Position numbers and translations under genes: made by a program
Shown here: positions 4,298-23,009 of the stretch, piece after piece
Layout of the letters: each line of letters begins with the position of its first letter
Numbering within the stretch: the first letter of the stretch is position 1
The notes under the pieces: generated by a model
The model's input: only the letters and a program-made list of their open reading frames with translations
Database searches by the model: none
What the model was told of the DNA's origin: nothing
NCBI GenBank assembly: GCA_024639325.1
Contig: JAHEIO010000036.1
Span: 1 to 36,530, forward strand
DNA from: Gammaproteobacteria bacterium
Lineage (GTDB): Bacteria > Pseudomonadota > Gammaproteobacteria > Arenicellales > JAANXG01
Length of the DNA: 36,530 bases
Reading direction: 5' to 3'

Positions 4298-4315
4298 AGC
4301 CTGCATGTGCAGGCT
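4298..4315 (-). terminator. Perfect palindrome at the end of the cyclase gene
   Basis: AGCCTGCA-TG-TGCAGGCT is an exact 8-bp stem that starts within the TAG stop codon of the cyclase gene (4314-4316). On the minus strand it is followed by TACGGATTTCTC, which is only weakly U-rich. It could be a 3' end structure, a weak terminator, or an operator for the TAXI gene that starts at 4202. Confidence 0.4.
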
Positions 4316-7759: not shown

Positions 7760-8809
7760 TTAGCGATGCGCCTCGAACAACTCATCCAATGCCTCCTGCC
7801 CGGGGCACAGCTTCTCATAGGGCAATGTATAAAGCGGTTGATCGATGCTGTCGTTGTGACTGTGGAGATCGGCCCCGGCTTCATCCACGTACAAAAGCCC
7901 GGTGACGATCTCTCCTCTTCTGTGGTGTTGCTGGATGTAGGACCACGCCGCATTCCTGGTCTTCATGCTGTAGGTGGGGGATGTCTTGCGCAGCACCACC
8001 TGGCTGCCGTCGTGAAGCGTCACCGGGGTGACGTCGTCGTACGCAACGATTATCTCCGACGCCTGCGGCAGAAAATCTGCGTGTATCACTTCCTCGAAAT
8101 GGTTTCTCGTATACGCATAGCTCCGCGTGGAGCCCTCATGGTCGTTGAAAGTGACGCAAGGGGAAATGACATCGATCAAGGCAAAACCGCGGTACGAGAG
8201 CCCGGCCTTGATCAATGGCACCAATTGCGCCTTGTCACCGGAAAAACTGCGCGCCACGAAGGTGCCGCCGAGGCTAAGCGCCAGCAGCACCGGATCCAAT
8301 GGCGGGTACTCGTTGATTTCCCCGCGTCTGGCGGTGCTTCCAATATCCGCCGAAGCGGAAAACTGTCCCTTGGTGAGTCCATAGACGCCGTTGTTCTCCA
8401 CAACGTAGAGCATATTCAGATTACGTCGGATGGCATGGGCGAATTGGCCCAAGCCAATGGACAGTGAATCCCCGTCGCCGGAGACCCCAATGATATTGAG
8501 ATCCCGGTTGGCTGCGTTGGCGCCTGTTGCCAGAGCGGGCATGCGGCCGTGGACCGCGTTAATGCCGTGAGAGGCACTCAGGAAGTAAGCGGTGGTTTTC
8601 GAAGAGCAGCCGATTCCGCTGATCTTGGCCGTCTTGTGCGGCGGCAGGTTGAGTTCGAAAAAAGCTCGAACCAGCGCCGCGGTGATCGAATCGTGGCCAC
8701 ACCCGGCACACAAGGTTGACATCCCGCCTTCGTAATCACGCACCGTCAGACCGAGTTTGTTCTTCTTGATTCCAGGGTATTTGACTTTGGGTTTTGACAG
8801 GTAACTCAT
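7760..8809 (-). CDS. korB: 2-oxoacid:acceptor oxidoreductase, beta subunit (KorB-like)
   Basis: 349 aa, thiamine-diphosphate-binding beta subunit of a 2-oxoacid oxidoreductase, which decarboxylates a 2-oxoacid to its acyl-CoA and passes two electrons to ferredoxin or another acceptor. Cluster ligands visible are C34 and C37 (STLCAGCG), C68 (GIGCSS) and C218 (ISPCVTFND). The TPP/Mg motif is GDGDSLSIG (111-119) followed by NNGVYGLTKGQ. The ATG overlaps the stop of the alpha-subunit gene by 4 nt (8806-8809), so translation is coupled. 2-Oxoglutarate is the best substrate guess given the KorC-like partner and the NAD-glutamate dehydrogenase in the window. Pyruvate or a branched 2-oxoacid is not excluded. 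Confidence 0.9.
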   Translation of the reverse strand: MSYLSKPKVKYPGIKKNKLGLTVRDYEGGMSTLCAGCGHDSITAALVRAFFELNLPPHKTAKISGIGCSSKTTAYFLSASHGINAVHGRMPALATGANAANRDLNIIGVSGDGDSLSIGLGQFAHAIRRNLNMLYVVENNGVYGLTKGQFSASADIGSTARRGEINEYPPLDPVLLALSLGGTFVARSFSGDKAQLVPLIKAGLSYRGFALIDVISPCVTFNDHEGSTRSYAYTRNHFEEVIHADFLPQASEIIVAYDDVTPVTLHDGSQVVLRKTSPTYSMKTRNAAWSYIQQHHRRGEIVTGLLYVDEAGADLHSHNDSIDQPLYTLPYEKLCPGQEALDELFEAHR

Positions 8810-10614
8810 GCAACCGACTCCTCGCTCATGGCGTCAAGCAGGATCCTTTCTATGTGGCCACTGCTGATAGGGAAGCCGTCATAGTGCAGGACCGGTATCA
8901 GTTTGCGGCTCTGAATATCAAGCTCCGCCTTGAGCAATGTGCAAAGCTGAGCGTCGCGATTCTGTTCAACCACGAACACCCGTTCATGAGAGTCGATGAA
9001 CTTCTTTACCTTTCCGTTAGCGGGAAACGCACGCAGACGCATATAATCAACCGGTTCATTGAGCCGTGGCAGCACTTCGCGAACGGCGCCGTCGCTGCTG
9101 CCGATGGCAATTATCCCGGTGCGGGCGTCCTTTTTTCTGATGACTACCGGCTGTGGCACCAGAGCGAAGGCTCCCTCCCATTTTCGAATCAAGCGGTCGA
9201 GAACTTCCTTGTATTCAGCCGGGTCCTCGGTATATCCACCACTGCGATTGTGGCCGGATCCGCGCGTGAAATAGGCGCCGCTCCGATGCACTCCGGGATA
9301 GGTGCGATAACAGATCCCGTCTCCGTCCTTGTCTTCATAACGAAAAAAATCGCCAAGGCGGTCGATCTCCTCCTCGGAAAGCACCTTGCCGCGATCCGGC
9401 TCATAAGATTCATCCCATTCTAGGCGCGGACACATCCAGTCGTTCATGCCGATGTCCAGATCCGACATCACGATGACCGGTGTTTGCAGCCGGTCGGCCA
9501 GATCGAATGCCCGTACAGCGAAGTAGAAACATTCTTCCGGGTCGCTGGGAAACAGTAGAATCTGGCGGGTATCTCCGTGGGATGCGTAAGCGCATGCGAG
9601 AAGGTCGGACTGTTGGGTTCTCGTCGGCAATCCGGTCGAAGGACCTGCCCGCTGCACATTGAACAAAACCGCGGGGATCTCGGCGTAGTATGCGAACCCT
9701 AGAAATTCGGCCATCAGTGAGACACCCGGTCCGCTAGTCGCCGTGAACGCGCGGGCGCCGGCCCAGCTTGCACCAAGCACCATTCCCATCGCGGCCAGTT
9801 CGTCTTCTGCCTGCACTACACAGAATCGGCGCGCCCCGGTGTCGGGATCCCTCCGAAATCGCTCGCAAAAGCGGTTGAAAGCGTCCATCAATGAGGTCGA
9901 CGGTGTGATCGGATACCATGCTGCCACCGTGGCACCGGCATAGACACAACCCAGACCGGCGGCGGTATTGCCGTCTATCATCATGTGCTGTGACGTTTTG
10001 TCCATGGCTTCCACGTGCACAGGCAGCGGACACTTGAAATGCCGCGATGCGAAGTCGAAGCCGAGATCGAGGGCGGTCAGGTTATTTTCCAGCATGGTCG
10101 CCTTTTTTGCATAAGCCTTCGAAAGACGAGCCCGAATCACTTCGAGGTCGAGCGCAAGCAGCGCCGCAAGTGCCCCGACGTAGGTGATGTTCTTCATCAA
10201 AATCCGAACACGCGGATCGTCGAACGCATCGTTGCACAGCTTGGACAGCGGAACTCCGAGAACGCTGATGTCGTCTCTCGCCATCATTTCTTCGCGGGGC
10301 CAGCTCGAGTCATAGAGCAGGAAACCGCCCGGGCTGACTTCCCTGACGTCCTGCTTGTAGGTCTGGGCGTTCATCGCCACCATGATGTCGACACGCCCCG
10401 ACCGCGCCTTGTGTGCGCCACGGGTGACCCTGATTTCATACCAGGTAGGTAATCCCTGTATGTTCGATGGAAAGAAATTCTTTCCGACCACCGGGACCCC
10501 CATCTGAAAAATGGATTTCATCAGAAGCGTATTTGCACTGGCGGACCCCGTGCCGTTGACGTTGGCCAACTTGATGACAAACTCGTTTACGCGATTTTTA
10601 TTGTTGTTTCGCAT
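8806..10614 (-). CDS. korA: 2-oxoacid:acceptor oxidoreductase, fused gamma-alpha subunit (KorA-like)
   Basis: 602 aa from the ATG at 10614. An N-terminal gamma domain (about 10-185; VNGTGSASANTLLMKSIF) is fused to an alpha domain (about 215-600; WYPITPSTSLMDAF, then TSGPGVSLMAEFLGF and GPSTGLPTRTQQSD). The frame is open upstream to an ATG at 10710, but homologues begin near VNEFVIKLANVNGTG. I therefore chose 10614, although no strong Shine-Dalgarno precedes it. The gene overlaps the flavoprotein gene upstream by 28 nt and the beta subunit by 4 nt, so this is one tightly coupled operon. The alpha domain contributes to the acyl-CoA/2-oxoacid site and the gamma domain usually binds CoA. Confidence 0.9.
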   Translation of the reverse strand: MRNNNKNRVNEFVIKLANVNGTGSASANTLLMKSIFQMGVPVVGKNFFPSNIQGLPTWYEIRVTRGAHKARSGRVDIMVAMNAQTYKQDVREVSPGGFLLYDSSWPREEMMARDDISVLGVPLSKLCNDAFDDPRVRILMKNITYVGALAALLALDLEVIRARLSKAYAKKATMLENNLTALDLGFDFASRHFKCPLPVHVEAMDKTSQHMMIDGNTAAGLGCVYAGATVAAWYPITPSTSLMDAFNRFCERFRRDPDTGARRFCVVQAEDELAAMGMVLGASWAGARAFTATSGPGVSLMAEFLGFAYYAEIPAVLFNVQRAGPSTGLPTRTQQSDLLACAYASHGDTRQILLFPSDPEECFYFAVRAFDLADRLQTPVIVMSDLDIGMNDWMCPRLEWDESYEPDRGKVLSEEEIDRLGDFFRYEDKDGDGICYRTYPGVHRSGAYFTRGSGHNRSGGYTEDPAEYKEVLDRLIRKWEGAFALVPQPVVIRKKDARTGIIAIGSSDGAVREVLPRLNEPVDYMRLRAFPANGKVKKFIDSHERVFVVEQNRDAQLCTLLKAELDIQSRKLIPVLHYDGFPISSGHIERILLDAMSEESVA

Positions 10615-12383
10615 GATTCGCCAGCGGCGTAAGGAATTCGAAGGGTAGATTTCTGCATGTCCCACGCACCGGTCGGACAGCGCTCGGCGCAGAGCCCGCA
10701 GTGGATGCATACATCTTCATCCTTGACCATGACCTTGCCGGTCTGAGGCAGCGCCGCCGAGACATAAATTGCCTGATCCTCGTTCATCGCCGGCCGTTTG
10801 AGGCGCCGCCGAAGATCGTCTTCGCCCCCGTTCGCAGTAATGGTCAGACACTCTACGGGGCAGACGTCGATGCAGGCGTCGCACTCGATGCACGACTCGG
10901 CCGTGAATACGGTTTGAATATCGCAATTTAGGCAGCGCTGGACTTCCTTGTTCACCTTTTCAGGCTCAAAGCCTAACTCCACCTCGATATTGATCGTGTC
11001 GAACCGGCTTCTCAACGGGACGTTGGACATGGACCGACGCGGCGACCCGTCGAACGTGTTGCCGTAGCTCCACTCATGCAGGCCCATCTTGGTACTGCTC
11101 ATATCGATGGTGTACGGCGGACGTTCGTCCAAAGGCACGCCGTTGCAGTAGTTGTGGATGGATATTGCCGCCTGGTGCGCATGCTCCACGGCCCAAATTA
11201 TGTTAAGCGGCCCAAATGCGGCGTCGCCGCCAAAGAACACGCCGTCCCGCGTGGACTGCATCGTTTTCTTGTCGACGCTGGGCATGTCCCATCGGTTGAA
11301 ATCGATACCGATATCACGCTCGATGAATGGAAATGCGTTCTCCTGACCAATTGCCAGGATGACCGAGTCGCACTCGATGACTGTTTCCCCGAGTTTCTGG
11401 GACGACAGACGGCCGTCCTCGTCCTCGTTCCACTCCACCTGCGAGAACCTGACGCCGAGCAGTCTGCCGTTGTCCAGTACGAACTCCTCGGGGGCGTGGT
11501 TGTAGATCATTTCTACCCGTTCCTCGATGGCGTCTTCGAGTTCCCAGTCGGAGGCTTTCAGCATGTTTGGCGGTTTGCGGGCAATTACGCTCACTTCCCG
11601 TCCCCCCAGCCTCAATGCGGTTCGGCAGCAGTCCATTGCGGTATTGCCGGCACCGATGATCAGGACCCGCTTACCGATACTCTCTACATGGCCGAATGCC
11701 ACGGATTCGAGCCACTGGATGCCAACAAATATTTCATTCGTTCCTTCGCGGCCGGGGAGTTTGAGATCGCGTCCCAGCGGCGCGCCGGTCCCCACGAATA
11801 CGGCGTCATATCCCTCGTTGAGAAAACTGGCCATGCTGGTCACCGGCGATGCCATTCTGAGATCGACCCCCATATCGAGAATGCAGCCGATTTCGTCATC
11901 CAGGATTTGCGCCGGCAGACGGAATGCCGGGATGTTGGTTCGCATCAATCCACCGGTGACATCGAGCTTTTCGAAAACGACCACCTCGTAGCCGAGGGGC
12001 AGAAGATCATTGGCCACGGTGAGCGACGCACACCCGGCACCAACACATCCGATTCGCTTTCCGTTCTTCATCTGCGGAATGTTCGGAAGTGCGTTGCTGA
12101 TTTCGGCCCGCAGATCCGCGGCGACCCGTTTTAGTCGGCAAATTGCAACCGGCTTCTCATCAATCCGTGCTCGACGGCAGGCAGGCTCGCAAGGCCGATC
12201 GCAAACTCGACCCAATATGCCGGGAAATACGTTCGATGTTCGATTGATCAGGTAAGCGTCGGTGTACCGCTTTTGAGCGATCAGGCGGATATACTCGGGG
12301 ACATCGGTGTGAGCCGGGCAGGCCCACTGACAATCCACGACTCTGTGATAATAATCCGGATGTTTGGTGTCCGTAGCCTTCAT
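10587..12383 (-). CDS. GltD-like NAD(P)-binding flavoprotein with ferredoxin domains (KorC-like)
   Basis: 598 aa from the ATG at 12383. The N-terminal iron-sulfur segment has C18, C22, C61, C65 and C69 (CQWACP...CDRPCEPAC). The FAD site is GCVGAGCAS (112-120), with Cys where homologues usually have Pro. The NAD(P) site is IIGAGNTAMDC (242-252). A C-terminal ferredoxin pair follows: CIECDACIDVCPVEC and CIHCGLCAERCPTG. It probably passes electrons from the oxidoreductase to NAD(P)+, as the KorC subunit of 2-oxoglutarate:NADP+ oxidoreductase does in aromatic-degrading betaproteobacteria (from memory). The open frame extends to a TTG at 12431, which is too close to its AGGA. It overlaps the korA-like gene by 28 nt. 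Confidence 0.85.
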   Translation of the reverse strand: MKATDTKHPDYYHRVVDCQWACPAHTDVPEYIRLIAQKRYTDAYLINRTSNVFPGILGRVCDRPCEPACRRARIDEKPVAICRLKRVAADLRAEISNALPNIPQMKNGKRIGCVGAGCASLTVANDLLPLGYEVVVFEKLDVTGGLMRTNIPAFRLPAQILDDEIGCILDMGVDLRMASPVTSMASFLNEGYDAVFVGTGAPLGRDLKLPGREGTNEIFVGIQWLESVAFGHVESIGKRVLIIGAGNTAMDCCRTALRLGGREVSVIARKPPNMLKASDWELEDAIEERVEMIYNHAPEEFVLDNGRLLGVRFSQVEWNEDEDGRLSSQKLGETVIECDSVILAIGQENAFPFIERDIGIDFNRWDMPSVDKKTMQSTRDGVFFGGDAAFGPLNIIWAVEHAHQAAISIHNYCNGVPLDERPPYTIDMSSTKMGLHEWSYGNTFDGSPRRSMSNVPLRSRFDTINIEVELGFEPEKVNKEVQRCLNCDIQTVFTAESCIECDACIDVCPVECLTITANGGEDDLRRRLKRPAMNEDQAIYVSAALPQTGKVMVKDEDVCIHCGLCAERCPTGAWDMQKSTLRIPYAAGESCETTIKIA

Positions 12384-12701
12384 AGCCGTATCGGGAGACA
12401 AGACCTCCCCCGGCCCGTGAAGGGAAGACAATTCCTACGATGACACGGAATATGTAACGTCAATTTGCGGATCAGACGCCCCAAAACTTCGTATGCCCCG
12501 GCTTACAGCCATCCAATGATAATCCGATCTTATCGCATAAAATAAAGTTTTTCTTATTGTATTCAGCATAGCCGTAAAACGAATCCCCAACCAGCCGATG
12601 AGTCGGCAGCAGGCAAGGCGAAGATTCTCCCTTTTGATCGGCGCGGGGGCGCGCCTTCAGCAGAGTCGTCGGATGTTCGATATTTTATGTAGGAGAATCG
12701 A
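12384..12701. other. Intergenic region upstream of the 2-oxoacid oxidoreductase operon
   Basis: 318 nt without a convincing gene. An AT-rich patch at about 12530-12575 probably holds the minus-strand promoter of the oxidoreductase operon (TACAAT is seen on the minus strand near 12560), but no matching -35 stands out. A strong hairpin GGCGCG-GGGG-CGCGCC lies at 12640-12655. Its surroundings, ATCGGCGCGGGGGCGCGCCT, resemble the end of the REP-like repeat at 18789-18844, and TGTAGGAGAATCG at about 12688-12700 resembles the other end, so this may be a degraded copy. Confidence 0.35.
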
Positions 12702-13280
12702 TTAGGGGTCCAGGCGGGTCATCTTCGGTGAATAAAACTCTTCTGGACGCCGTTCCTCCAGATGGTCGAACTTCGTCGAACTGATGACCAGATGGATACG
12801 CTCCTCCTTGCTGGCGTTGATGGCGGTGTGGTTCTGGGTCCCATCCATTTGGTAAAGATAACCATCGGCGGGAACATGGTGAAACGTGCCCACTCGACCG
12901 TCCATTTGCACCAGAAAACACGCCGGATTGGTTTTTATCGCGAGGTGATATCGCAGGCACGTGTCGTTGTGTATGGTCAGGCACGTCTTCTTGCCAAGAC
13001 GCATCAGCCTGGCCCGGCGGTAGGGAAACGGCAGTTGATGAAGAAATTCTTCGAACGCGGTGCCCCTGAATTCCTCGTTGATCGTCGTGAAATCATCTTC
13101 GTTGATATCATCCGGCAACCACCCGGAAAAATCTTTCAGCGGAATTTTGCTGTTCGCATGGCAGTTGACCAGGATCACGTTGTCGTCACCGAACAACTCG
13201 TATACGTCTTCCATCACGGTCCGTATTTTTTGGATATCGCAGTGGATATCGAGCTTTTTCAGGAACTCCCGTTCAGCCAT
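12702..13280 (-). CDS. Aspartyl/asparaginyl beta-hydroxylase-like 2-oxoglutarate/Fe(II) dioxygenase
   Basis: 192 aa from the ATG at 13280; an in-frame GTG at 13289 is the only longer option. The second half fits the Asp/Asn beta-hydroxylase cupin fold. Iron ligands H104 and D106 (IHNDTCLRYHLAIKTNP) and H151 (NHTAIN) are seen, and R161 (ERIHLVIS) would hold the 2-oxoglutarate carboxylate. It should hydroxylate an amino-acid side chain, free or in a peptide or protein, using O2 and 2-oxoglutarate in the cytoplasm. No membrane segment or TPR region is present, unlike animal AspH. Its start overlaps the end of the methyltransferase gene by 8 nt, so it belongs to that operon. The substrate is unknown. 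Confidence 0.78.
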   Translation of the reverse strand: MAEREFLKKLDIHCDIQKIRTVMEDVYELFGDDNVILVNCHANSKIPLKDFSGWLPDDINEDDFTTINEEFRGTAFEEFLHQLPFPYRRARLMRLGKKTCLTIHNDTCLRYHLAIKTNPACFLVQMDGRVGTFHHVPADGYLYQMDGTQNHTAINASKEERIHLVISSTKFDHLEERRPEEFYSPKMTRLDP

Positions 13281-13974
13281 CACCGCCACCCAATTGGTGT
13301 TTTATCGATCGGGGTTCTATCACCCGCGTAGAGCGAACGGCCCGATGGTCGTTGACAAGGCAGTCAACGTCGCAGCCTGCAATCACGGCGTAATCATTTT
13401 CGATAAGTTTCGACAATTTTGGCAGGTGATCTTTAGTGGCCTCGATCACCATGACGCCGTTCGCCGCCAGATACGCGTTGAGCGAAAGCAGTATCTCGAG
13501 CCAATCCCGCTTGTCACCTTTGCGACCGCCGCGGGTCCAGGTCCGTCCGATTCCACCCCATACGATGCAGTCGTAGGTATCCCGTGGGCTTTGCCATTCA
13601 CGAAAATTAGCGGCATCGAAATCCGTGTTCGGTCGTCCGGCATATCTTTTTTTTGCCGCCTCGATCGCGGTTGGCGAAATATCCATCCCGACATAGTGGA
13701 TATCGGGGCCGAGGTACTTGAGCAGTTCCCCCGTGCCGCACCCCACGTCCAGCACCGATCTGGCCTGTCTGTGAACAACGTAACCTGCCTGGACCGCGAT
13801 CCGAGCCGAGAAATCCAGGCTCTCGATGACTTCGTACGCGCCGCTTCGGTAAGCCTGGTCCTGGGTATCCTCGGAATAGCGCAGTTCCTGTCCCGGATCC
13901 ACCCAGCGGTCACCGGTCGGAATTGCGTCCGATTCACCAGATTTTTCGGCAGGGTCGTCTGATTTTGCTTGCAC
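13273..13974 (-). CDS. Class I SAM-dependent methyltransferase
   Basis: 233 aa, starting from a GTG at 13974 without a clear Shine-Dalgarno; the first 20 or so residues look disordered. The SAM-binding motif I is VLDVGCGTGELL (74-85), followed by the acidic ribose-binding residue D98 (YVGMDIS). YDCIVWGGIG at about 133-142 fits motif IV. This is a free-standing small-molecule or peptide methyltransferase of the UbiE/Methyltransf type. It sits between the GT2-radical SAM gene (50 nt upstream) and the hydroxylase-like gene (8-nt overlap). The acceptor is not predictable, but the setting suggests it modifies the same product as its neighbours. Confidence 0.82.
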   Translation of the reverse strand: MQAKSDDPAEKSGESDAIPTGDRWVDPGQELRYSEDTQDQAYRSGAYEVIESLDFSARIAVQAGYVVHRQARSVLDVGCGTGELLKYLGPDIHYVGMDISPTAIEAAKKRYAGRPNTDFDAANFREWQSPRDTYDCIVWGGIGRTWTRGGRKGDKRDWLEILLSLNAYLAANGVMVIEATKDHLPKLSKLIENDYAVIAGCDVDCLVNDHRAVRSTRVIEPRSIKHQLGGGDG

Positions 13975-14024
13975 GGGTATCTAACAACAGGAATCGTTTT
14001 CTGGCTCAACTCGATTGGCACGGA

Positions 14025-16043
14025 TCAACTTGCGATTTTTGAGACCCGACCCTGATCCAACAGATCCAGATGAGTCGATATATTACACCCGTTGATGCAG
14101 GCGCAGGTGCTGGTCAATGCACGGTGTTCCCAGGCTTCTGTCGAATTCCATGCCTCCGCCAGATCCCAGTTCCAGTCCCTCAAATGACCGAACGGCTTGA
14201 CCTGCTCGCATACCGCCACGTACCCGTCCGCGTAGATCACCGCATCATCGAATCCGGCGCGGCACGGGAAATTCCGTTTACGGGTCTTGAGCGTATCCAG
14301 CATGAGCTGCAGTTTCACGCGCTGATATCCGCGAAAATAGTTCGGGTGCCTGGTCTCAATACGATCAAGGAACCGTTTAACGGTCTCGATATCATTGCCA
14401 AGGTAGGGTTTTTGGGGTTCGTACTCCTCTTCAAGGATGCTTGCCGGGACGCCGAACGTACTGAAGGAATTTCCCCGCACCATGGACATCTTGCTCGGCA
14501 CGCCGATCCGCTCCAGTTCATCGACGAGCGTCTCGACCGCGTCGAGGTTCTCCCGCATCAGAGTGATGGCGGCGGTAAACTTGAGATTGCTGTGACTCCT
14601 CTTGATTTCCGCAAGGAGCTCGAAACTCTTCATTGCTTTTTCATAACCGCGTCGCATCTTCCGGATCTCGTCGTGCGTTTCTTCCGGGCCGTCCAGCGAT
14701 ATCTGGATCTTCAGCTTTTTTCGAGGGTGCCGGCAGAGCAGGGATTCACTTATCTCGGCAAGCCGCCGCGGCATGGAGCCGTTGGTCAACAGGCCAAGAT
14801 AACGCACGTGATGATTCGACATCAGGTAATCCAGGATTGCCTCGAGATCCCGGGTAAGAAGCGCCTCACCGCCGGTTATGGTCATATCGACGGGCTGGTT
14901 TAGAGAATCGACGATACGTCCGATCTCTTCCTTGCTCATCTCCGGCGTCCTGGTATTGAGATCCGGTATGAAGCAGTGGTCACAAGCCATATTGCACCGG
15001 TTGTTGATGAACAGCACCAGGCTCGATGGCGTTGCGGGCCTCGAAGGCACCGGAAACGGGTGCATCGCCGCGAGATTATCGGCCGTTTTTTGCTTGAAGT
15101 ACCGGTCGAGTTCGTGCTGGTCGAGAAAGTTGACGCCATGCCTTTTCCTGAGTTCCGGGGTGGTTCTCAACACATCGAGCAGTCCGGGAAGGTTCTCACG
15201 CTCCATGACATGCGTAGCGTGGCCGGACATCCACTTCAGCGCCGCGCCGGCGCCCTGTCGCTTGACAACAACTTCCAGGACACGCTCATTGCGCTCCCTT
15301 CTCCGCCCGTCGTCGTCCTTCGCAACATAGGAGGTGTGGTTGTGATGAATTGCCCGCGGCGCCCAGGCGGCTACGACGCGATAGCCATGAGACCTGATTT
15401 CCAGGCACAGATCACGGTCCTCGCACATGTAGAACCAGTAGGGATCATAACCGCCGGCCTCTTCGAAGATTTTTCTGGGTATGGCGAGAAACGCGCTTTC
15501 GACATGATCGCAATCATAAATCGCGCTACGGCCTTCATCCTCCGGCGGGTGGCAGAAGTATTTGCCGCGCTTGTTGGGCCCAACCACGCGCAGTGCGGAC
15601 TCCCTGTCCGATGGGGGATAGTAGACGTATTTTTCGTGCCTGAACTCACCACACATCTTGCCGGATATGAACTCCACGTCCTTGCCCGAGGCGTCCGCCG
15701 GGCCGCATCCGCCAATTGCACCAATGTCGGGATTGGCTGCAAGGATCTTCGCCAGCTCATCGACGCTGTCCGGCAGCAATTCGGTATCGTCGTCCAGGAA
15801 GAGCAGCACCTCCCCTGTACTTTTCAACGCGGCAACGTTCCTCGAATACGACGGCCCCAGGTTGATCGGATTCCTGATGCAGACGTCGATCCGGTGAGAA
15901 AGGTGAGTCAGGTCTGCCGTGCCTGCATCGTCTATGACCAGGGTTTCCAATGCATGTCCGCCACGTTGAGCCTCGATACTGCCCAGGCAGGCAGCCAGAT
16001 CACCGGGGCGATTGCAGGTTGGAATGATGATGGAAAATTTCAT
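14025..16043 (-). CDS. Fusion: GT2 glycosyltransferase + radical SAM/SPASM-like enzyme
   Basis: 672 aa in one uninterrupted frame. Residues 1 to about 255 form a GT-A family 2 glycosyltransferase: FSIIIPTCNRP (3-13), the metal-binding D84-D85-D86 (LFLDDDTE), and the likely catalytic E208-D209 (CEDRDLCLEI). After a linker (about 255-338) comes a radical SAM domain with C350-x3-C354-x2-C357 (NNRCNMACDHC), GGE at 391-393 and SLDGPEE (449-455). The C-terminal SPASM-like segment has C594, C612, C647, C649 and C653 for an auxiliary cluster. The enzyme should both transfer a sugar and carry out a radical reaction, perhaps on the same acceptor. It is in a six-gene unit of modifying enzymes. I do not recognise this fusion as a named family. 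Confidence 0.85.
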   Translation of the reverse strand: MKFSIIIPTCNRPGDLAACLGSIEAQRGGHALETLVIDDAGTADLTHLSHRIDVCIRNPINLGPSYSRNVAALKSTGEVLLFLDDDTELLPDSVDELAKILAANPDIGAIGGCGPADASGKDVEFISGKMCGEFRHEKYVYYPPSDRESALRVVGPNKRGKYFCHPPEDEGRSAIYDCDHVESAFLAIPRKIFEEAGGYDPYWFYMCEDRDLCLEIRSHGYRVVAAWAPRAIHHNHTSYVAKDDDGRRRERNERVLEVVVKRQGAGAALKWMSGHATHVMERENLPGLLDVLRTTPELRKRHGVNFLDQHELDRYFKQKTADNLAAMHPFPVPSRPATPSSLVLFINNRCNMACDHCFIPDLNTRTPEMSKEEIGRIVDSLNQPVDMTITGGEALLTRDLEAILDYLMSNHHVRYLGLLTNGSMPRRLAEISESLLCRHPRKKLKIQISLDGPEETHDEIRKMRRGYEKAMKSFELLAEIKRSHSNLKFTAAITLMRENLDAVETLVDELERIGVPSKMSMVRGNSFSTFGVPASILEEEYEPQKPYLGNDIETVKRFLDRIETRHPNYFRGYQRVKLQLMLDTLKTRKRNFPCRAGFDDAVIYADGYVAVCEQVKPFGHLRDWNWDLAEAWNSTEAWEHRALTSTCACINGCNISTHLDLLDQGRVSKIAS

Positions 16044-16070
16044 TGACGGCAGTATACGCTGAGGCGGGTT

Positions 16071-16826
16071 CTATCTGCGGCCGATCAACATGAATCGGGT
16101 GTATTTCTTGAGCTTAGTCTGTCCGTCGTAAATTGGTTCCGACAGCGGTACCTGGCGCTTGAACGAACCCAGATCGGGAGCGCAGTTGTGGTGTTCCTCG
16201 CAGCTAAAGTAGTCATTGGATTGGACGATCATGAGGGTTCCCGGCGGTATTCGACTAAACCAGCGATCGAATTCCGCAAGGTGCTCACAGCTCGTATTGA
16301 TCAACAAATCGGGCCGGGAGTCGTCTGCCGAGGTCCTGGCCAGCAGCCTGCGGTAATCCAGTTCATATATATCGGCGGTCAGGCTCTCGAATCTGCCGTT
16401 CTCTGCATTGGTGCGATTCAATGCCTCCGCGACAGGTCTGCACTGCGGCTCGATATCCACGGATACTACCTTTTTGATGGTGAAACGCGGGTCGTGCAGA
16501 AACATGGCCCCCAGCACACCGTACCAGCCACCCAGGATATAAATCGTACCGAGATCCGTTGTTCCAGTGTCGGCCAGGGTGTCGAGCAACCATTTCTTGC
16601 AGGTAACCTGTCCAAGATTGAGCGAATGCCCCAGTCGCAGGATGGGGTACTCCCTGATGGCATAGAGGATGTCGAGTATGTAGTCGCTGTCCATGAACAC
16701 CGACAGGCCATCCAGGATATCGTGATAGAACTCATCCTTGTCCTGCGGCCCGACAGGATCCACCAGACGCGGATTCAGATCTGGATTCGCTCCCTCTTCG
16801 GCGTCCGCCCCGCCCGGTGCGTTCAT
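16071..16826 (-). CDS. Divergent class I methyltransferase-like protein
   Basis: 251 aa. The middle reads as a Rossmann fold: TIYILGGWYGVLGAMFL (94-110), where the usual DxGxGxG loop is replaced by GGWYGVLG. The acidic residue after strand 2 is D124 (VVSVDIEPQC) and a later motif is LLINTSCEHL (174-183). The N-terminal 30 residues are low-complexity and acidic. A GGAAG Shine-Dalgarno lies about 6 nt before the ATG. It could be a SAM-dependent methyltransferase with an altered cofactor loop, or a methyltransferase-fold protein with another role. It lies 27 nt upstream of the GT2-radical SAM gene, consistent with one operon. Confidence 0.6.
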   Translation of the reverse strand: MNAPGGADAEEGANPDLNPRLVDPVGPQDKDEFYHDILDGLSVFMDSDYILDILYAIREYPILRLGHSLNLGQVTCKKWLLDTLADTGTTDLGTIYILGGWYGVLGAMFLHDPRFTIKKVVSVDIEPQCRPVAEALNRTNAENGRFESLTADIYELDYRRLLARTSADDSRPDLLINTSCEHLAEFDRWFSRIPPGTLMIVQSNDYFSCEEHHNCAPDLGSFKRQVPLSEPIYDGQTKLKKYTRFMLIGRR

Positions 16827-16865
16827 TCCAACTTCCAGTCGCGCGAGATCGCCCGGGCGGCCCGC

Positions 16866-17504
16866 TTACTGCAGGTGCGCCAACGCCTCGGCGGGAACCA
16901 CTGTCGTTACACCTCCGGGCGGCGTCCACAGGAGCTGCAGGGCATGGGAACCTTTCTTCTGGTAGTAGTCGAGCTTGAACTCGTACCAGCCCGGCTCCGG
17001 GATGACCAGTTCCAGCGGATCGGATTCACGGTCGAAGTGGATTTCGGGATCCTCCCAGATCTCGACGCCGCCTACCCAGAACCGTACGCCATCGTTAGAA
17101 ACCAAGTGTAGGATCCAGTTTCCAGACTCCTGAAAATGGATCATTCCGCGGATGAACGCACCGACCATCATGCTTCGATCCGAGGTCAACACGTTGATGA
17201 TCTTGTCTTCCTTGGTAACCGGATCCGTTTCAGTGAGCTGGTTGAGCATGGCAATCGGCTCACCCGGCACCGGGGCCGCGTCGGCCTGATAAATCTCATC
17301 CAACGTGTAGAACTTCTGATTGAGGTATTCCACGGCGAGTCCCGGTTTTATCGCGTCAGCAGAGGGCTGCGGAGAAAGCGGTACTACACCGGAAATGGGT
17401 TCGGCCTGTACGGCGGTCAGGGGACCCGCCAGCACTAGTACCAGCAGCCACTGAATGATTCCTGTTGGCACCGATGCTTGCCGGGCAATGATTAAGTGGG
17501 ACAT
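16866..17504 (-). CDS. Secreted PA14-like domain protein
   Basis: 212 aa from the ATG at 17504, preceded by a strong GAGGAGG; a longer frame to 17558 would bury this Shine-Dalgarno. There is a signal peptide with likely cleavage after VQA (residue 34). Residues about 55-205 match the PA14 beta-barrel: GLAVEYLNQKFYTLDEI near the start, GMIHFQESGNWILHLVSNDG (120-139), RFWVGGVEIW (141-150), and EPGWYEFKLDYYQ with LQLLWTPPGG near the end. PA14 domains in bacteria often bind carbohydrate. It is the only exported, apparently non-enzymatic protein among six genes for modifying enzymes, so it may be their substrate or may bind the product. That is inference. Confidence 0.75.
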   Translation of the reverse strand: MSHLIIARQASVPTGIIQWLLVLVLAGPLTAVQAEPISGVVPLSPQPSADAIKPGLAVEYLNQKFYTLDEIYQADAAPVPGEPIAMLNQLTETDPVTKEDKIINVLTSDRSMMVGAFIRGMIHFQESGNWILHLVSNDGVRFWVGGVEIWEDPEIHFDRESDPLELVIPEPGWYEFKLDYYQKKGSHALQLLWTPPGGVTTVVPAEALAHLQ

Positions 17505-17599
17505 TGAGCCTCCTCGAAACTGATAGTTTTCCCTGCGCCTGGCAGTATACAGTGACATTTAGATAAACAAAATCGCCCGCGCGTTACGGGCCCGGAAGG

Positions 17600-18694
17600 T
17601 CAGGATTCGCCGTCGATAGCAATGCGCACGACGTCATCGGGCTTGTTAGGCCGGTCACCTCTTGCGGCCTCATCGTACTTAAGTCGGAAGTCCTCATGTA
17701 CACCGCAGGTGTGCGCACAGGTGCCGGGCGCGGCAGATGCGCGCCGCCACAGACGCTCCAGTTCCCGCCATTTTTTCGATGCCAGGATGTGCCGAATCGA
17801 ATGTTTTCGCAGACTGAAATGTTGCCGGTTGCGGTAGAACCATGTGCCGGTGTCCGAAGATTCACAGTTCGTGCAGGGATAGAGATAACCCAATGCGGTG
17901 ATAGCGAGGCCTTTGCCGGAAAGGCAATTGGGCCGGATGGAAAGCTGGCTGTCGAGTTCGGGCGCCGGCATGTCCGCAGAGCGGACGCGGCGGACGGCGC
18001 GGCGATTGAGATTGACCACCCCGATGTAGTCGCCGCTTGCGGGCGCAAGTGGGTCGTCCTCGCGGAAACGCGCACTCTTTTTGAACGTGATGTCACGCAC
18101 TCCCAGCCGCTCGGCCAACCTGCGCGCTTCTTCGATCTGGTGTTCATTGTGCCGGAACACGATGAACTTCCAGGACACGAACATCCGCGGCGCACAGTAG
18201 GCCATCGCCGCCTCGATGTCGCTCCAGCGCGAATTGACGCGGTAGATGTGATTGGTATCCTCGAGCCCGTCGACGGAAAAAGTTATGGCGTCCCTCTCGT
18301 CGAGGAGTGCGCACGTCTTCTGCCACCATTGCATGGTGCGGTGGCTGCCGTTGGTCTCGATCATGACGCTCAATCCCGCGGCCTTGAAATGGGCAATCAC
18401 CTCATGGAAACGGGTGTGATAAATGCAGTCACCGTAAGTACCGCACAGATTGATCTTCAGTCCCTCGAAAGCGCGCCGCCCGGACACCGGAAAGATCCGC
18501 TCGATTAGATCGACCGGCAGCTGGGTCAGGTTTTCACGGACCCACGGATTGCCGGTGCGGCTGCACTCGGGGCAGCCTAGCGAGCAGCGATTGGTGATCT
18601 CGACATTGAATGACCGCACGGGTGCGCCCAAAAACTCGTACCCCACAGCAGACGCCGTTTCAGGCTGCTGGAGAAAATCATTAGACGTGGTCAT
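17600..18694 (-). CDS. Radical SAM/SPASM-like protein
   Basis: 364 aa from the ATG at 18694. The frame is open to 18844, but the extra 50 residues run into the REP-like repeat and look non-coding. The radical SAM cluster motif is C37-x3-C41-x2-C44 (TNRCSLGCPEC). The SAM-binding stretch is NLCGTYGDC (82-90) where GGEP is usual. Auxiliary cysteines C257, C274, C277, C326 and C330 form a SPASM-like C-terminal cluster region. Such proteins usually modify peptides or proteins or rearrange sugars. It is the first gene of the six-gene unit that runs leftward, with 95 nt before the PA14-like gene. No short precursor-peptide gene was seen beside it. Confidence 0.82.
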   Translation of the reverse strand: MTTSNDFLQQPETASAVGYEFLGAPVRSFNVEITNRCSLGCPECSRTGNPWVRENLTQLPVDLIERIFPVSGRRAFEGLKINLCGTYGDCIYHTRFHEVIAHFKAAGLSVMIETNGSHRTMQWWQKTCALLDERDAITFSVDGLEDTNHIYRVNSRWSDIEAAMAYCAPRMFVSWKFIVFRHNEHQIEEARRLAERLGVRDITFKKSARFREDDPLAPASGDYIGVVNLNRRAVRRVRSADMPAPELDSQLSIRPNCLSGKGLAITALGYLYPCTNCESSDTGTWFYRNRQHFSLRKHSIRHILASKKWRELERLWRRASAAPGTCAHTCGVHEDFRLKYDEAARGDRPNKPDDVVRIAIDGES

Positions 18695-18788: not shown

Positions 18789-18844
18789 TTGTAGGAGGCG
18801 CGCCCTCGCGCCGATTCTTCGCAGCGGGGCTGCCGCTCCCACAA
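18789..18844. repeat. REP-like palindromic repeat, copy 2
   Basis: A 56-nt unit with inverted ends TTGTAGGAG and CTCCCACAA (8 of 9 positions pair). It has internal pairing as well (GGCGCG with CGCGCC). It lies upstream of the radical SAM gene in the 214-nt gap between two minus-strand genes. The central CGATTCTTCGC is found, reversed, at about 3158-3168 within copy 1. It resembles the REP/BIME-type intergenic repeats of Gammaproteobacteria. The rest of the gap (18695-18788, 18845-18908) shows no gene. Confidence 0.6.
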
Positions 18845-18908: not shown

Positions 18909-20072
18909 TTATTTATAAGGATCAGCAGCGTCGCGCAGGCCGTCACCAAAGAAGTTAAACGCCAGGATAACGACGATCACCGGCACCACCGGCAGCATCA
19001 ACCAGGGGTACAGGGCCACGACGTTGATGTTCTGCGCTTCGTTCAACAGGACACCCCAGCTCGTAATCGGGGGACGCAGACCCAGGCCCAGGAAGCTCAG
19101 CGCGGTTTCACCCAGGATCATGGACGGAATCGACAACGTTGCCGAGGCGATCAGGTGGCTCATGAAGCCCGGCAGCAGGTGCCGACCGATGATACGGCGC
19201 GGCCGCGCACCCATGAACTGTGCCGCAGTGCAGTAGTCTTCCTCTCTCAGCGCCAGCAGCCGGGACCGCACGGCCCGTGCCAGGCTGGTCCAGTCCAGAA
19301 AGGCCAGGATCACCGTGATGCCGAAAAACACCAGAATCGGGCTCCAGTTTACCGGCAGTACCGCCGACAGGCTCATCCACAGCGGCAACTCCGGGAACGA
19401 CCTGAAAATCTCGATGATACGCTGGATGACATTGTCTATCGGTCCGCCGTAGTATCCGGCGATGCCGCCGATGACGATGCCGAGCGTCATGCTGATCACA
19501 ATCCCGATCAATCCTATGGTTAAGGAAATGCGTGCACCATGGATGATGCGCGACAACATGTCGCGGCCCAGCCGGTCTGTCCCCAACCAGAAGAAATAAC
19601 CGTCCTTGGCGGGACACACCAGGTGAAACGTCGATTCAAAGAGATCCCAGAACATGTAGGGATCGCCCGAACACAGAAAGCGCAGTGGATACACGCTACC
19701 CGTGTCAACTTTGTATTCCCGCTTCAGATTGGTCATGTTCATCTCGAACTTAAAGCCGTAGACGAACGGGCCCTTGAACTCACCCTCGTGGAACCAATGT
19801 ACGGACTGCGGTGGGGCGAAAATGCGCTGCGTATTTCGCGTATTGAAGTTATAGGGGGAGATGAATTCCGTGAATATGCAGGTCACATACGAAAAAAGCA
19901 GGATTGCCGCCGAAATCATGGCAATCTTGTGCCGCTTCAGCTTGAGCCACATCAACTGCCATTGCGAGGCGAGGTAGTACTTTTCCTGCTCCGGGGTCAG
20001 CGCCTCGATGGAGAACGGATCGAACGGCTTTTTCGATACGTAATGCTCTACCGTTCTGTTTGGCGTACTCAT
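18909..20072 (-). CDS. Oligopeptide-type ABC importer permease (OppC-like)
   Basis: 387 aa inner-membrane permease of a peptide/nickel-type ABC importer. One membrane segment (about 48-70) is followed by an unusually long periplasmic region (about 72-163) holding C134 and C153. Five further segments form the transport core. The ATPase-contact loop is AAQFMGARPRRIIGRHLLPG, and GETALSFLGLGL near the C-terminus is typical of OppC. It is longer than a usual OppC (about 300 aa) because of that periplasmic insertion. Its start overlaps the OppB-like gene by 4 nt. It is the last gene of the operon that begins at 24895. Confidence 0.92.
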   Translation of the reverse strand: MSTPNRTVEHYVSKKPFDPFSIEALTPEQEKYYLASQWQLMWLKLKRHKIAMISAAILLFSYVTCIFTEFISPYNFNTRNTQRIFAPPQSVHWFHEGEFKGPFVYGFKFEMNMTNLKREYKVDTGSVYPLRFLCSGDPYMFWDLFESTFHLVCPAKDGYFFWLGTDRLGRDMLSRIIHGARISLTIGLIGIVISMTLGIVIGGIAGYYGGPIDNVIQRIIEIFRSFPELPLWMSLSAVLPVNWSPILVFFGITVILAFLDWTSLARAVRSRLLALREEDYCTAAQFMGARPRRIIGRHLLPGFMSHLIASATLSIPSMILGETALSFLGLGLRPPITSWGVLLNEAQNINVVALYPWLMLPVVPVIVVILAFNFFGDGLRDAADPYK

Positions 20073-21064
20073 CGCGTCACACCTCCCTGCAGCCGTATCC
20101 TGGGATCGAGCATGGCCAGCGCGATATCCGACACCAGTACCCCGACCACCGTCAAGGTCGACAGGAACATCAGGAAGGATCCTGCAAGATACATATCCTG
20201 ACTCTGCAGAGCGCTCAGCATCATGGGCCCGGTGGTCGGCAGGGACAAGACCACGCCCACGACCTCCGCCCCCGAAATAATGCTAGGCAGGATGGCACCG
20301 ATATCCGCAATAAAGAAATTGAGCGCCATGCGCAGGGGATACTTGCGCAGCAGTTTTCCGGGCGGCAGGCCCTTGGCGCGGCCGGTGGTGACATATTGCT
20401 TCTGCAGTTCATCGAGCAGGTTGGCGCGCAGCCGGCGGATCATGCCGGCGGTGCCGGAGGTTCCGATCACGACCACCGGTATCCACAGATGCTCCAGCAC
20501 CGACATCGCTTTGCCCCAACTCCACGGCTGGTCGATGTATTCCGGTTCCATCAGACCCCCTATCGAGGTCCCGAAATACACGTTAGCCAGATACAGCATT
20601 ACCAGAGCAAGCAGGAAGTTCGGCGTGGCCAAACCAATGAAGCCGATAAAGGTCAATCCGTAATCACCCCAGCTGTACTGGTGCGTCGCGCTGTAGATGC
20701 CGATGGGGAACGCAATGATCCAGGTAAACACGATCGTTACCACGGACACGACGATGGTCAAAATCAGCCGGTCGCCGACAACATCACTGACTGGCAGATC
20801 GTACTCGAATGAGTAGCCGAAATCCCCCTGCACCATGCCGACGACCCAATAGACGTACTGCTCCCACATGGGTTTGTCGAGTCCATACTCCTGCCTCAAA
20901 AACTCGACTTTCTTGGAGTCGACGGTCTCTCCCTGGCTTTCGAGTTCGGCGATGTAGCTCTCCAGGTAGTCGCCCGGCGGCAGCTGGATGATAACGAAGC
21001 AGATCAGGCTGATCACCAGCAATGTCGGGATCATCATCAGGAAACGGTGGATGATGTACTTCAT
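20069..21064 (-). CDS. Oligopeptide-type ABC importer permease (OppB-like)
   Basis: 331 aa inner-membrane permease paired with the OppC-like protein. It starts MKYIIHRFLMMIPTLLVISL, the usual OppB N-terminal membrane segment, and continues with GDYLESYI and KPMWEQYVYWV before the core segments. The ATPase-contact loop is YVTTGRAKGLPPGKLLRKY. EVVGVVLSLPTTGPMML near residue 265 matches the conserved pore region. It lies 43 nt after the binding-protein gene and overlaps the next permease by 4 nt. The substrate is not evident: this subfamily includes importers for peptides, sugars and opines. Confidence 0.92.
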   Translation of the reverse strand: MKYIIHRFLMMIPTLLVISLICFVIIQLPPGDYLESYIAELESQGETVDSKKVEFLRQEYGLDKPMWEQYVYWVVGMVQGDFGYSFEYDLPVSDVVGDRLILTIVVSVVTIVFTWIIAFPIGIYSATHQYSWGDYGLTFIGFIGLATPNFLLALVMLYLANVYFGTSIGGLMEPEYIDQPWSWGKAMSVLEHLWIPVVVIGTSGTAGMIRRLRANLLDELQKQYVTTGRAKGLPPGKLLRKYPLRMALNFFIADIGAILPSIISGAEVVGVVLSLPTTGPMMLSALQSQDMYLAGSFLMFLSTLTVVGVLVSDIALAMLDPRIRLQGGVTR

Positions 21065-21107: not shown

Positions 21108-23009
21108 TTAGTCGTCGAACCAGAACGTATCCGGCTGGTAGATACCAAAGTACGAACCGGGCTCCCAGTTGTAGAGGCCCTGCTCCGGGACATTGCGCAA
21201 CTTGTTGTTGACCACAACCGGCTGCGGCACGCCGTTTACGGTACCGATCGTGAAAACCTGATCGGCGTGAATCCCGAGCATTTCGTGCCAGATTTTCTTC
21301 CGCTCCTCCGGGGATTCTGTATGTACCCAATTATCGTTCAGCTTGGACAAACGAACGACCGGTTCGAGATCTGGGGGTTCTCCGGACTGTCCACCGGATT
21401 CGTAGAACTTGCCCCATTTGGACCAGTGCAGCTGCTGCTGAGTAGTCGGCGCCAGTTCCGCAGGGCTCATATCAGCGGTGGGAATGCCATTGTAAAGGCC
21501 CGACCATACCGCCATAACGGAGTCGCCCGCGAAGATCCGGTTTCTGAAGACTTCACGCTGGGACGGTCTGGTAAACAATGCAATTCCCAGCTTCCTCCAA
21601 CTGCCGGTGATCAGTTCCAGGACATCGGTTTCCTCGGTACTTTCACCCGACGATTGGACGATGATCTCCATCGGTTTCCCATTGGGCAGCAAACGCAGCC
21701 CCTTGGAGTTGCGTTTGGACAATCCCATTTCATCCAGCAAGGCATTGGCCTGCTCGAGGTCGAACTGGGCCCAGTTCGTCTGATACTCCGGCCTGAACAG
21801 GGGACTGTCCGGCAGCACGGTGTTGTTGCTCTCGCTAACCAGTCCGAAATAGATCACCTGGTTTATTTCCTGCCGGTTTATGGCCAGGGACAGTGCCCTG
21901 CGAAACCGCACATCTTGCAACATGCTGCGCCAGACTTCGTCGTTGCTATTCAAATTGGGTGCCAGCGCAATCTGCGAACCCTTGGCGGTCCGCCAAAGAC
22001 GCACCGTATAGTCATTGCGCTGTTCCCCTTCCTTCAGAAAGGTATAGTCCTCGAAGGTCAGGTAGCGGGCCTGCAGGTCCACGTCACCGGCTCCGGTCTT
22101 GGCGGCCACGAGACTGACCGACACGATGGTGACGATCGCCCGATCGATGTACGGCAGCTGGTTGCCCTGTTCATCAACGCGGTGGAAAAACGGGTTGCGT
22201 ACGAACACATAGCGATCCGAAGGGGGAAACACCGTGTTGTACCAGGGTTGCAAGGTCGGCAGGTCGGGGTTGGTCAATTTGTACATGCGGGACATGCGTG
22301 CGTGCATACCGGCCCAGTTCCGGGTCCCGGCTTTCCTGACCTTGGTTTTGAGTTGCTCCTCGGTCAGATAGTTCGCATGGAACTGCTTCATGTAGTGGGC
22401 GGGTTCGTAGATGAACAGCGGTCGCGCACCGGCCAGGGCGGTCAGAAAGAAGGGGTTGGGGTTGGACCAGGAGTATCGGATGGTGTATTCATCGATGATC
22501 TCGACTTTCGGCGGCTGATCGTCCACCAGCAGGGAGGTGCTGGGGCCGAAAGGGGACAGGTCCTCGTTGTTGGCGACGTCCTCCCAGAAGTAGCGGAAGT
22601 CTTCAGTCGTAAAAGGGTGGCCGTCGGACCACTTGTGACCCGGGCGCAGGTGGAAGGTGAATATCTTGCTGTCCTCGACTTCGAACCTCTGCAGAACGTC
22701 CGGCACCAGTTCCAGGTTCTGGTTGTAACCGACGAGACGGGAATATCCGTAAATGACCATCTGGCGGATGTCCCGGGTTTTACCCATGAGCATGTCGAGA
22801 TCTCCGCCGTAGCGGCCGATCTTCCTGCCCGTGTCGGAGAGATTGATAACGCGCGGCATCTCCGGCAGCCGTTCGTTCACGGCAGGCAGCTTGCCGGCCT
22901 CGACGTCCGCAACCAGGCTTGGAACTTCGCCGGCTATTGCTGCAAGGGGCAACGAACCGAGCAATAGGCCGGCAGCGGGAATCGTCAGGGCTCTCAACAG
23001 GTTCTTCAT
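21108..23009 (-). CDS. Family 5 extracellular solute-binding protein of ABC importer
   Basis: 633 aa periplasmic binding protein (OppA/DppA type). A signal peptide ends near AIA at residue 26. The family region begins around YGGDLDML (68-75). FTFHLRPGHKWSDGHPFTTEDF near 118 is the hallmark segment, and ALSLAINRQEINQVIYFGL in the second half is also typical. It is longer than usual OppA (about 540 aa). The start overlaps the stop of the ATPase gene by 1 nt (TAATG), and AGGAG lies about 9 nt upstream. It captures the solute and delivers it to the two permeases encoded just downstream. Confidence 0.92.
   Translation of the reverse strand: MKNLLRALTIPAAGLLLGSLPLAAIAGEVPSLVADVEAGKLPAVNERLPEMPRVINLSDTGRKIGRYGGDLDMLMGKTRDIRQMVIYGYSRLVGYNQNLELVPDVLQRFEVEDSKIFTFHLRPGHKWSDGHPFTTEDFRYFWEDVANNEDLSPFGPSTSLLVDDQPPKVEIIDEYTIRYSWSNPNPFFLTALAGARPLFIYEPAHYMKQFHANYLTEEQLKTKVRKAGTRNWAGMHARMSRMYKLTNPDLPTLQPWYNTVFPPSDRYVFVRNPFFHRVDEQGNQLPYIDRAIVTIVSVSLVAAKTGAGDVDLQARYLTFEDYTFLKEGEQRNDYTVRLWRTAKGSQIALAPNLNSNDEVWRSMLQDVRFRRALSLAINRQEINQVIYFGLVSESNNTVLPDSPLFRPEYQTNWAQFDLEQANALLDEMGLSKRNSKGLRLLPNGKPMEIIVQSSGESTEETDVLELITGSWRKLGIALFTRPSQREVFRNRIFAGDSVMAVWSGLYNGIPTADMSPAELAPTTQQQLHWSKWGKFYESGGQSGEPPDLEPVVRLSKLNDNWVHTESPEERKKIWHEMLGIHADQVFTIGTVNGVPQPVVVNNKLRNVPEQGLYNWEPGSYFGIYQPDTFWFDD

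Follow-up and report, generated by a model that had tools for sequence, protein, structure and literature searches.

A six-gene cassette with a glycosyltransferase-radical SAM fusion at a conserved glycan locus in one gammaproteobacterial genus

Introduction

Radical S-adenosylmethionine (SAM) enzymes with a SPASM domain are best known from peptides and enzymes. In mycofactocin biosynthesis a radical SAM protein (MftC) is accompanied by a glycosyltransferase (MftF). A second system with a counterpart here is caprazamycin biosynthesis. According to PMC9814697, Cpz10 is the beta-hydroxylase of that pathway (PDB 7V4F), acts on a small aminoacyl-nucleoside and binds iron through H115, D117 and H160, with R170 in the site. 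We examined a six-gene cassette in 36,530 nt of DNA from a gammaproteobacterium of the order Arenicellales (assembly GCA_024639325.1, contig JAHEIO010000036.1, positions 1 to 36,530), hereafter called the window. The window belongs to contig C109; the genome, 95.6% complete, comprises 4.69 Mb in 352 contigs. The six genes encode a radical SAM protein (rSAM1), an exported PA14-domain protein, a divergent methyltransferase (MT1), a glycosyltransferase of family GT2 fused to a radical SAM/SPASM protein, a second methyltransferase (MT2) and an AspH-like hydroxylase. MT1 is an old resident methyltransferase of a locus for glycan building and export, and the five other genes are grouped around it in one genus. 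We tentatively propose, with a probability only a little short of even, that the cassette carries out a lineage-specific tailoring of a glycan or glycoconjugate inside this older locus.

Gene content and conservation of the cassette

Six intact genes occupy positions 12702-18694 of the minus strand in the order rSAM1-PA14-MT1-fusion-MT2-AspH (Table 1). If PA14 and AspH are read from their ATG codons, the widest gap, the one that precedes PA14, measures 95 nt, and MT2 and AspH overlap by 8 nt. These coordinates agree with a sequence-only reading of the window, which had described six same-strand genes with gaps of at most 95 nt and one 8-nt overlap. Its domain calls are backed by Pfam for five genes and by the AlphaFold2 class I methyltransferase fold for MT1. 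It had also found no short precursor gene. Short open reading frames (ORFs) of the island interval, compared with congener G002, gave matches only inside or overlapping genes and no conserved precursor ORF. Promoter and terminator matches showed no clear excess over shuffled sequences.

Table 1. Positions of the cassette genes and bordering features in the window
Feature	Positions	Strand	Basis
rSAM1, radical SAM protein with twitch/SPASM-like C-terminus	17600-18694	-	PF04055 35.8 bits (cut-off 29.5)
Exported PA14-domain protein	16866-17504 (longer ORF from 17558)	-	PF07691 32.7 bits (cut-off 24); signal peptide by eye
MT1, divergent class I SAM methyltransferase	16071-16826	-	AlphaFold2/Foldseek fold; 22-locus table
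GT2 glycosyltransferase fused to radical SAM/SPASM	14025-16043	-	PF00535, PF04055, PF13186 (SPASM, 22.6 bits, cut-off 21.5)
MT2, class I SAM methyltransferase, GTG start	13273-13974	-	PF13489/PF08242
AspH/Cpz10-like 2-oxoglutarate Fe(II) hydroxylase	12702-13280 (or 13289)	-	PF05118
oppC permease, end of Opp-type ABC transporter operon bordering the cassette	18909-20072	-	PF00528
oppB permease	20069-21064	-	PF00528
oppA solute-binding protein	21108-23009	-	PF00496; match in 12/14 relatives
oppDF fused ATPases	23009-24895	-	PF00005
Polysaccharide-deacetylase-like protein, other border of locus	6964-7755	+	40% identical to annotated Mesorhizobium gene
GT28-type glycosyltransferase, other border of locus	5776-6951	+	PF04101 40.5 bits
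Adenylate/guanylate cyclase-domain protein beside locus	4314-5675	-	PF00211; close homologue in 5/22 MT1 loci

The genus sample comprised the window genome (G000) and the congeners G001, G002 and G003. The island order is kept downstream of the opp operon in three of the four (window, G001 and G002), and the six genes are 95-97% identical to the window in G001 and 62-76% in G002. In G003 (89% complete) rSAM1, PA14 and AspH are unmatched, and the matches to the fusion are partial only. All six genes are under purifying selection, with dN/dS ratios (nonsynonymous to synonymous substitution rates) of 0.15-0.32 between the window and its nearest relative, G001; in the same comparison, six neighbouring genes gave 0.05 to 0.41. 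Relatives in other genomes were traced for rSAM1, PA14, MT1, the fusion and AspH. Outside the genus those of rSAM1, PA14, the fusion and AspH are unlinked. The sequence-only reading had named scattering of the six genes, without a conserved neighbourhood, as a refutation; the traceable genes are scattered outside the genus, and three congeneric genomes keep the gene order. Four of the five genes have relatives in other settings; therefore the genus-specific feature is their meeting around MT1.

MT1 and the glycan locus

MT1 has no Pfam or NCBIfam match. An AlphaFold2 model built from seven sequences (mean predicted local distance difference test score, pLDDT, 75.2) adopts the fold of class I SAM methyltransferases; its structural matches are many and generic, led by NodS at a template modelling (TM) score of about 0.5. 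A profile that took in sister-genus and phage relatives detected MT1 in 14 of 109 genomes of the order and in 7 of 398 genomes of a phylum sample, the window genome being counted in both. A narrower profile found it in 1 of 274 genomes of the class.

Gene content was tabulated for 22 MT1 loci, from 20 distinct genomes and two rhizobial plasmids; five of the 22 come from one genus outside the class, with a locus resembling that of Mesorhizobium. Locus lengths are very unequal and match thresholds vary from gene to gene, and with these limits the table contains a GT28-type gene in 17 loci, GT4b in 17, an ATP-binding cassette (ABC) transporter gene in 16, a deacetylase-like gene in 15, GT4a in 15 and a second GT28 in 13. 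Less frequent are oppC (11), a cyclic-nucleotide-binding gene (11), oppA (10), oppB (10), formyltransferase-like and PF12692-like methyltransferase genes (7 each) and the cyclase (5). The Sinorhizobium meliloti deacetylase-like gene is scored absent because the stretch fetched starts inside it. At least three of six glycan genes (GT28 of two kinds, GT4 of two kinds, deacetylase-like, MsbA-like ABC) are present in 17/22 loci, Sinorhizobium and Mesorhizobium among them. The remaining five are the three cassette genomes, which have GT28, deacetylase-like and opp genes only, and contigs of 3.3 and 5.3 kb. The sequence-only reading had named placement in a known antibiotic or O-antigen pathway as a further refutation, and on its two conditions the answer is mixed. 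MT1 does belong to a conserved glycosyltransferase and exporter locus; rSAM1, PA14, the fusion, MT2 and AspH each occur in 3/22 loci, in the same three genomes.

The position of MT1 is also shared. In the window, and likewise in relatives G005, G008, G009 and G012, it shares the strand of opp and stands between that operon and the deacetylase-GT28 pair. In these four relatives the interval contains MT1, GT4, formyltransferase-like, ABC and PF12692 methyltransferase genes, an ordinary glycan set that sister genera have at this place. In the window genome the ABC gene, both GT4 genes and the second GT28 are found on contig C78, outside the window. The same four genes are on C117 in G002, and the ABC and GT4b genes are on C39 in G001. 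In G003, MT1, ABC, GT4 genes and the second GT28 are together on one contig.

The radical SAM proteins

Both radical SAM proteins possess a CxxxCxxC core and a SPASM-type CX9-15GX4C motif, in keeping with the auxiliary-cluster cysteines reported from the sequence alone. The motif cysteines of rSAM1 (C37, C41, C44; C257, C274, C277, C326, C330) and of the fusion (C350, C354, C357; C594, C612, C647, C649, C653) are invariant in the three genomes. This SPASM motif is found also outside enzymes for ribosomally synthesized and post-translationally modified peptides (RiPPs). A structure model of rSAM1 had a mean pLDDT of 46.8 and was set aside. Matches to rSAM1 occur in 17/109 genomes of the order. 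Outside the genus, 14 loci of family f2 (L118-L130, L183:9102-10702) carry an rSAM1-family gene, which adjoins a PF12692-type methyltransferase gene in 13 of them; 13 have an ilvE-like gene and 10 a redoxin-like gene (these names, like groEL and nhaA below, were given by eye). A prokaryotic viperin, a defence protein, was considered and rejected, as rSAM1 scored 27.6 bits against a cut-off of 180, and the PADLOC scores were weak (32.6 bits for rSAM1, 43.3 bits for the fusion).

Relatives of the fusion were sought by a seeded search of genome contigs from 84,980 species, which depends on exact short seeds so that distant fusions escape it. Of 155 related places the best 80 were inspected. Two congeners match near full length (97% and 74%), one protein from a Candidatus Sigynarchaeum metagenome-assembled genome matches at full length with 27% identity, and the remainder are partial. 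The Sigynarchaeum protein is a GT2-radical SAM/SPASM fusion of 688 aa (L026:6565-8631) whose terminal cysteines follow the pattern of the window fusion. Seven sister-genus genomes encode GT2 and radical SAM in neighbouring but distinct genes, and stop codons separate the two where inspected. The GT2 and radical SAM/SPASM pairing is thus seen in three settings: the window fusion, the Sigynarchaeum fusion and the sister-genus neighbours. A terminal CxCx3C is common to the window fusion, the Sigynarchaeum protein and one sister-genus radical SAM protein.

PA14, MT2 and AspH

The best solved relative of the PA14 protein is the PA14 domain of the anti-sigma factor RsgI3, and the window's protein may bind sugar. 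Matches were found in 27/109 genomes of the order, the three cassette genomes included. Six aligned relatives are 42-47% identical. Relatives are unlinked in other families, including in G018, G032 and G354, which have no rSAM1 match. The cassette copies carry an eight-residue charged insert (residues 114-121, numbered in the 230 aa ORF) that is absent from six unlinked copies.

These features bear on a second explanation, in which the cassette modifies a peptide or protein: either the exported PA14 protein, by hydroxylation, radical cross-linking and methylation, or an unlinked RiPP precursor with the help of a PqqD-like protein near the ABC gene. The SPASM cysteines of both radical SAM proteins, the resemblance of the fusion's radical SAM half to peptide maturases and the PA14 insert all fit it. 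So does a pair of genes for a PqqD-like protein (89 aa) and an HprK-related kinase, which directly follows the MsbA-like ABC gene in the window genome (C78, L248:2854-3963) and lies beside it in G001 and G002. In the cassette itself a Pfam scan recognized no PqqD-like protein. However, such a pair is present in G003 too, which has no rSAM1 match; the island interval holds no conserved short ORF, other contigs being outside that search; and a simple peptide maturase is not expected to have a fused glycosyltransferase. Beyond the insert alone, 41 PA14 positions separate cassette copies from unlinked ones, and PA14 relatives persist in genomes without an rSAM1 match. We regard this explanation as quite improbable. 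The sequence-only reading had put a peptide or protein pathway around PA14 first; with PA14 relatives unlinked in other families, this is not upheld as the leading interpretation. Modification of PA14 may still occur, because cassette copies bear the insert. The other option it had raised, a modified sugar or an amino-acid-based compound, is supported.

The best solved relative of MT2 is a phosphoethanolamine N-methyltransferase (2.9e-8). A weak PADLOC match to mad2 (42.4 bits) was taken as a generic methyltransferase match.

Residues H107, D109, H154 and R164 of AspH (195 aa ORF numbering) are invariant in ten aligned sequences, window included, and this HxD...H iron triad and arginine align with Cpz10 H115, D117, H160 and R170. 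AspH matches occur in 22/109 genomes of the order and are near full length in four sister-genus genomes. A class III aminotransferase gene, 69-71% identical to window gene 26094-27410, is near AspH in 3/4 of these sister-genus loci; in the fourth stretch (L173) no such match was seen, and a BKACE gene is there.

The closeness of AspH to Cpz10 of caprazamycin biosynthesis suggests another possibility, that the product of the cassette is a diffusible small molecule with an amino acid, nucleoside or sugar as its scaffold, resembling an antibiotic or metallophore, with ABC export and perhaps Opp uptake, the glycan locus being a mere neighbour. A glycosyltransferase together with pairs of methyltransferases and radical SAM enzymes would suit such a pathway. 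A further point in its favour is the 13 nt spacer between oppC and rSAM1 in G002; in G001 this spacer has 88 nt and in the window 214 nt. In contrast, Pfam found no nonribosomal peptide synthetase, ligase or aminotransferase domain among the six genes, and Opp and MT1 are retained in genomes without the cassette. We consider a diffusible product unlikely.

The same surveys raise the question of whether there is one pathway at all. Unrelated genes could have gathered in one place and stayed together because the three close genomes share their ancestry. The relatives have different company elsewhere: AspH is near the class III aminotransferase in sister-genus loci, PA14 adjoins groEL in f2 and other genes elsewhere, and rSAM1 adjoins the PF12692 methyltransferase in f2. 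In G002 MT1 and the fusion are separated by an nhaA-like gene on the opposite strand (L025:8474-9829), and the POR genes described below are missing from this place. On the other hand, the genes of the window are tightly spaced on one strand with one overlap, their order persists at 62-76% identity despite changed neighbours, and selection maintains all six. A chance gathering has, in our judgement, a low probability.

Phage relatives

Queries with MT1, rSAM1 and AspH (limits 0.01, 1e-5 and 0.01, respectively) each match one record among 50,697 phage records, that of Pelagibacter phage Mosig. Its MT1-like and rSAM1-like genes are 5 kb apart, both at about 26% identity, and the run also holds a DegT aminotransferase, a carbamoyltransferase and a GT8-like gene. 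Parts of the run are carried by six IMG/VR contigs. When viral sequences were scanned with alignments of the bacterial MT1 and rSAM1 proteins, no relative appeared. Runs beside tail genes in marine phages (L114, L132-L137) contain, whole or in part, several radical SAM genes, a DegT aminotransferase, a carbamoyltransferase, nitroreductase-like genes and MT1-like methyltransferases.

Other features of the window

The deacetylase-like protein at one border has no Pfam or NCBIfam match; the Mesorhizobium gene that it matches is annotated as a polysaccharide deacetylase family protein. The neighbouring GT28-type protein is 42% identical to a Mesorhizobium gene annotated as a glycosyltransferase family protein. 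We take the GT28-type proteins to be COG4671, a name under which a literature search gave nothing. Genes resembling POR, PORb and DPD (7760-12431) are at this place in the window genome and G001. Distant POR-type homologues (25-36%) are near the GT2/radical SAM pair in five sister-genus loci and adjoin MT1 in G006. We keep these genes outside the proposed pathway, to which they may belong.

A palindromic sequence resembling a repetitive extragenic palindrome was noticed by eye at 18789-18843, within the oppC-rSAM1 spacer. A 176 nt element occurs twice near gene ends (25921-26096 and 36155-36330, 81% identity), and a 25 nt companion repeat (96%) is found at 25894-25918 and 36061-36085.

A proposed role in glycan tailoring

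Because the six genes sit in a glycan locus, the interpretation with most support is that they tailor a glycan or glycoconjugate. The GT2 and radical SAM/SPASM pairing in three settings, the nearby MT1-like and rSAM1-like genes of phage Mosig and the AspH match to the small-molecule hydroxylase Cpz10 also speak for it. A surface sugar compound is a likelier target than a peptide because related bacteria use the site for genes that build and export sugar chains. In the proposed scheme the GT2 half of the fusion would glycosylate an acceptor, and its radical SAM/SPASM half would alter the same product by hydrogen abstraction, through epimerization, oxidation or formation of a new bond. A second such change would be made by rSAM1. 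MT1 and MT2 would methylate, and AspH would hydroxylate a small group of the product, an amino acid or the like. Export of the product might fall to the MsbA-like protein, now encoded on another contig; the secreted PA14 protein, with its possible sugar-binding domain, might hold or sense it outside; and Opp may take fragments back in. More specifically, a single polypeptide could transfer the sugar and then carry out the radical change on the bound acceptor, with the second radical SAM enzyme, two methyltransferases and Cpz10-like hydroxylase completing a new kind of surface glycoconjugate. This specific form is possible but doubtful.

Several observations weigh against glycan tailoring. The fusion's radical SAM half has its best PDB score with the peptide maturase SkfB (1.4e-12); SkfB is its nearest solved radical SAM relative and therefore speaks for a peptide. 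RiPP models are among the fusion's NCBIfam matches, all far below cut-off, and the PqqD-like/HprK pair after the ABC gene could mean a peptide. No sugar-nucleotide enzyme was recognized among the six genes. The three genomes that show the island order all belong to one genus, and such synteny is weak proof; relatives of PA14 and AspH occur unlinked elsewhere. GT4 and ABC genes are on other contigs in all three cassette genomes, and in G006 MT1 is followed by POR-type genes, without the deacetylase-GT28 pair there. The phage parallel is imperfect as well: the Mosig GT8 score is just below its cut-off, the AspH-like match is 24 kb from the MT1-like gene, and the fusion query matches two other phage records among the 50,697 but not Mosig.

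If the proposal is true, a natural glycosyltransferase-radical SAM fusion in a glycan locus would bring SPASM chemistry to surface sugars. GT2 and this SPASM subtype, also paired in an Asgard archaeon and in sister genera, would then form a wider, unnamed module.

Comparison with known systems

Scans with Pfam, NCBIfam, PADLOC and PHROGs and the literature, in which subscription papers were mostly out of reach, gave no named system with this gene set, as the sequence-only reading had supposed. Four systems share parts of it.

The sugar-type island of phage Mosig resembles the cassette in carrying MT1-like and rSAM1-like genes in one run, with an AspH-like gene elsewhere in the genome. It differs in its low identity, in the lack of a fusion match and in having its own DegT aminotransferase and carbamoyltransferase.

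Mycofactocin biosynthesis likewise combines a radical SAM/SPASM protein with a GT2. Unlike mycofactocin, no precursor was found in the island, glycosyltransferase and radical SAM are one protein here, and the fusion's GT2 half scored 57.8 bits against the MftF cut-off of 280. The mycofactocin radical SAM maturase was rejected as an identity for either protein (26.9 bits for rSAM1 and 46.1 bits for the fusion, cut-off 265).

Cpz10 matches AspH over residues 63-169 (6e-21), and the iron and 2-oxoglutarate residues align. Otherwise the families of the cassette differ from those named in the abstract of PMC9814697; a caprazamycin-type cluster was sought by family scans only.

The closest likeness to the surrounding locus is rhizobial. 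The loci on S. meliloti pSymB (824-845 kb) and Mesorhizobium pWSM1497 share with the window genome the MT1 family, GT28-type, GT4 and deacetylase-like genes, an MsbA-like ABC gene (two overlapping ORFs in S. meliloti) and an Opp-type transporter. In contrast to the window, the stretches fetched have no match for rSAM1, PA14, the fusion, MT2 or AspH. According to PMC12542648 and PMC5498481, SMb21240 and SMb21245 are near 808 and 814 kb, and the polysaccharide cluster ends at smb21248. We infer that the S. meliloti MT1 locus lies about 10 kb beyond this Clr-regulated nodP2-smb21248 cluster, since the record used has no gene table there (PMC12542648, PMC5498481). Two other links were dropped: the operon of msbA2 (SMb21191) is near 938 kb, compared with 836-846 kb for the MT1 locus, and in the literature consulted nothing connects the K-polysaccharide genes smb20804/20805 to it. 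No study of the rhizobial MT1-GT28-GT4-ABC-Opp locus was found in the literature searched, and the conserved locus of MT1, GT28, GT4, MsbA-like ABC and Opp genes is outlined here. The rhizobial MT1 is 41% identical to the sister-genus MT1. The host of the window is uncultured; the core of the locus is testable in the tractable S. meliloti.

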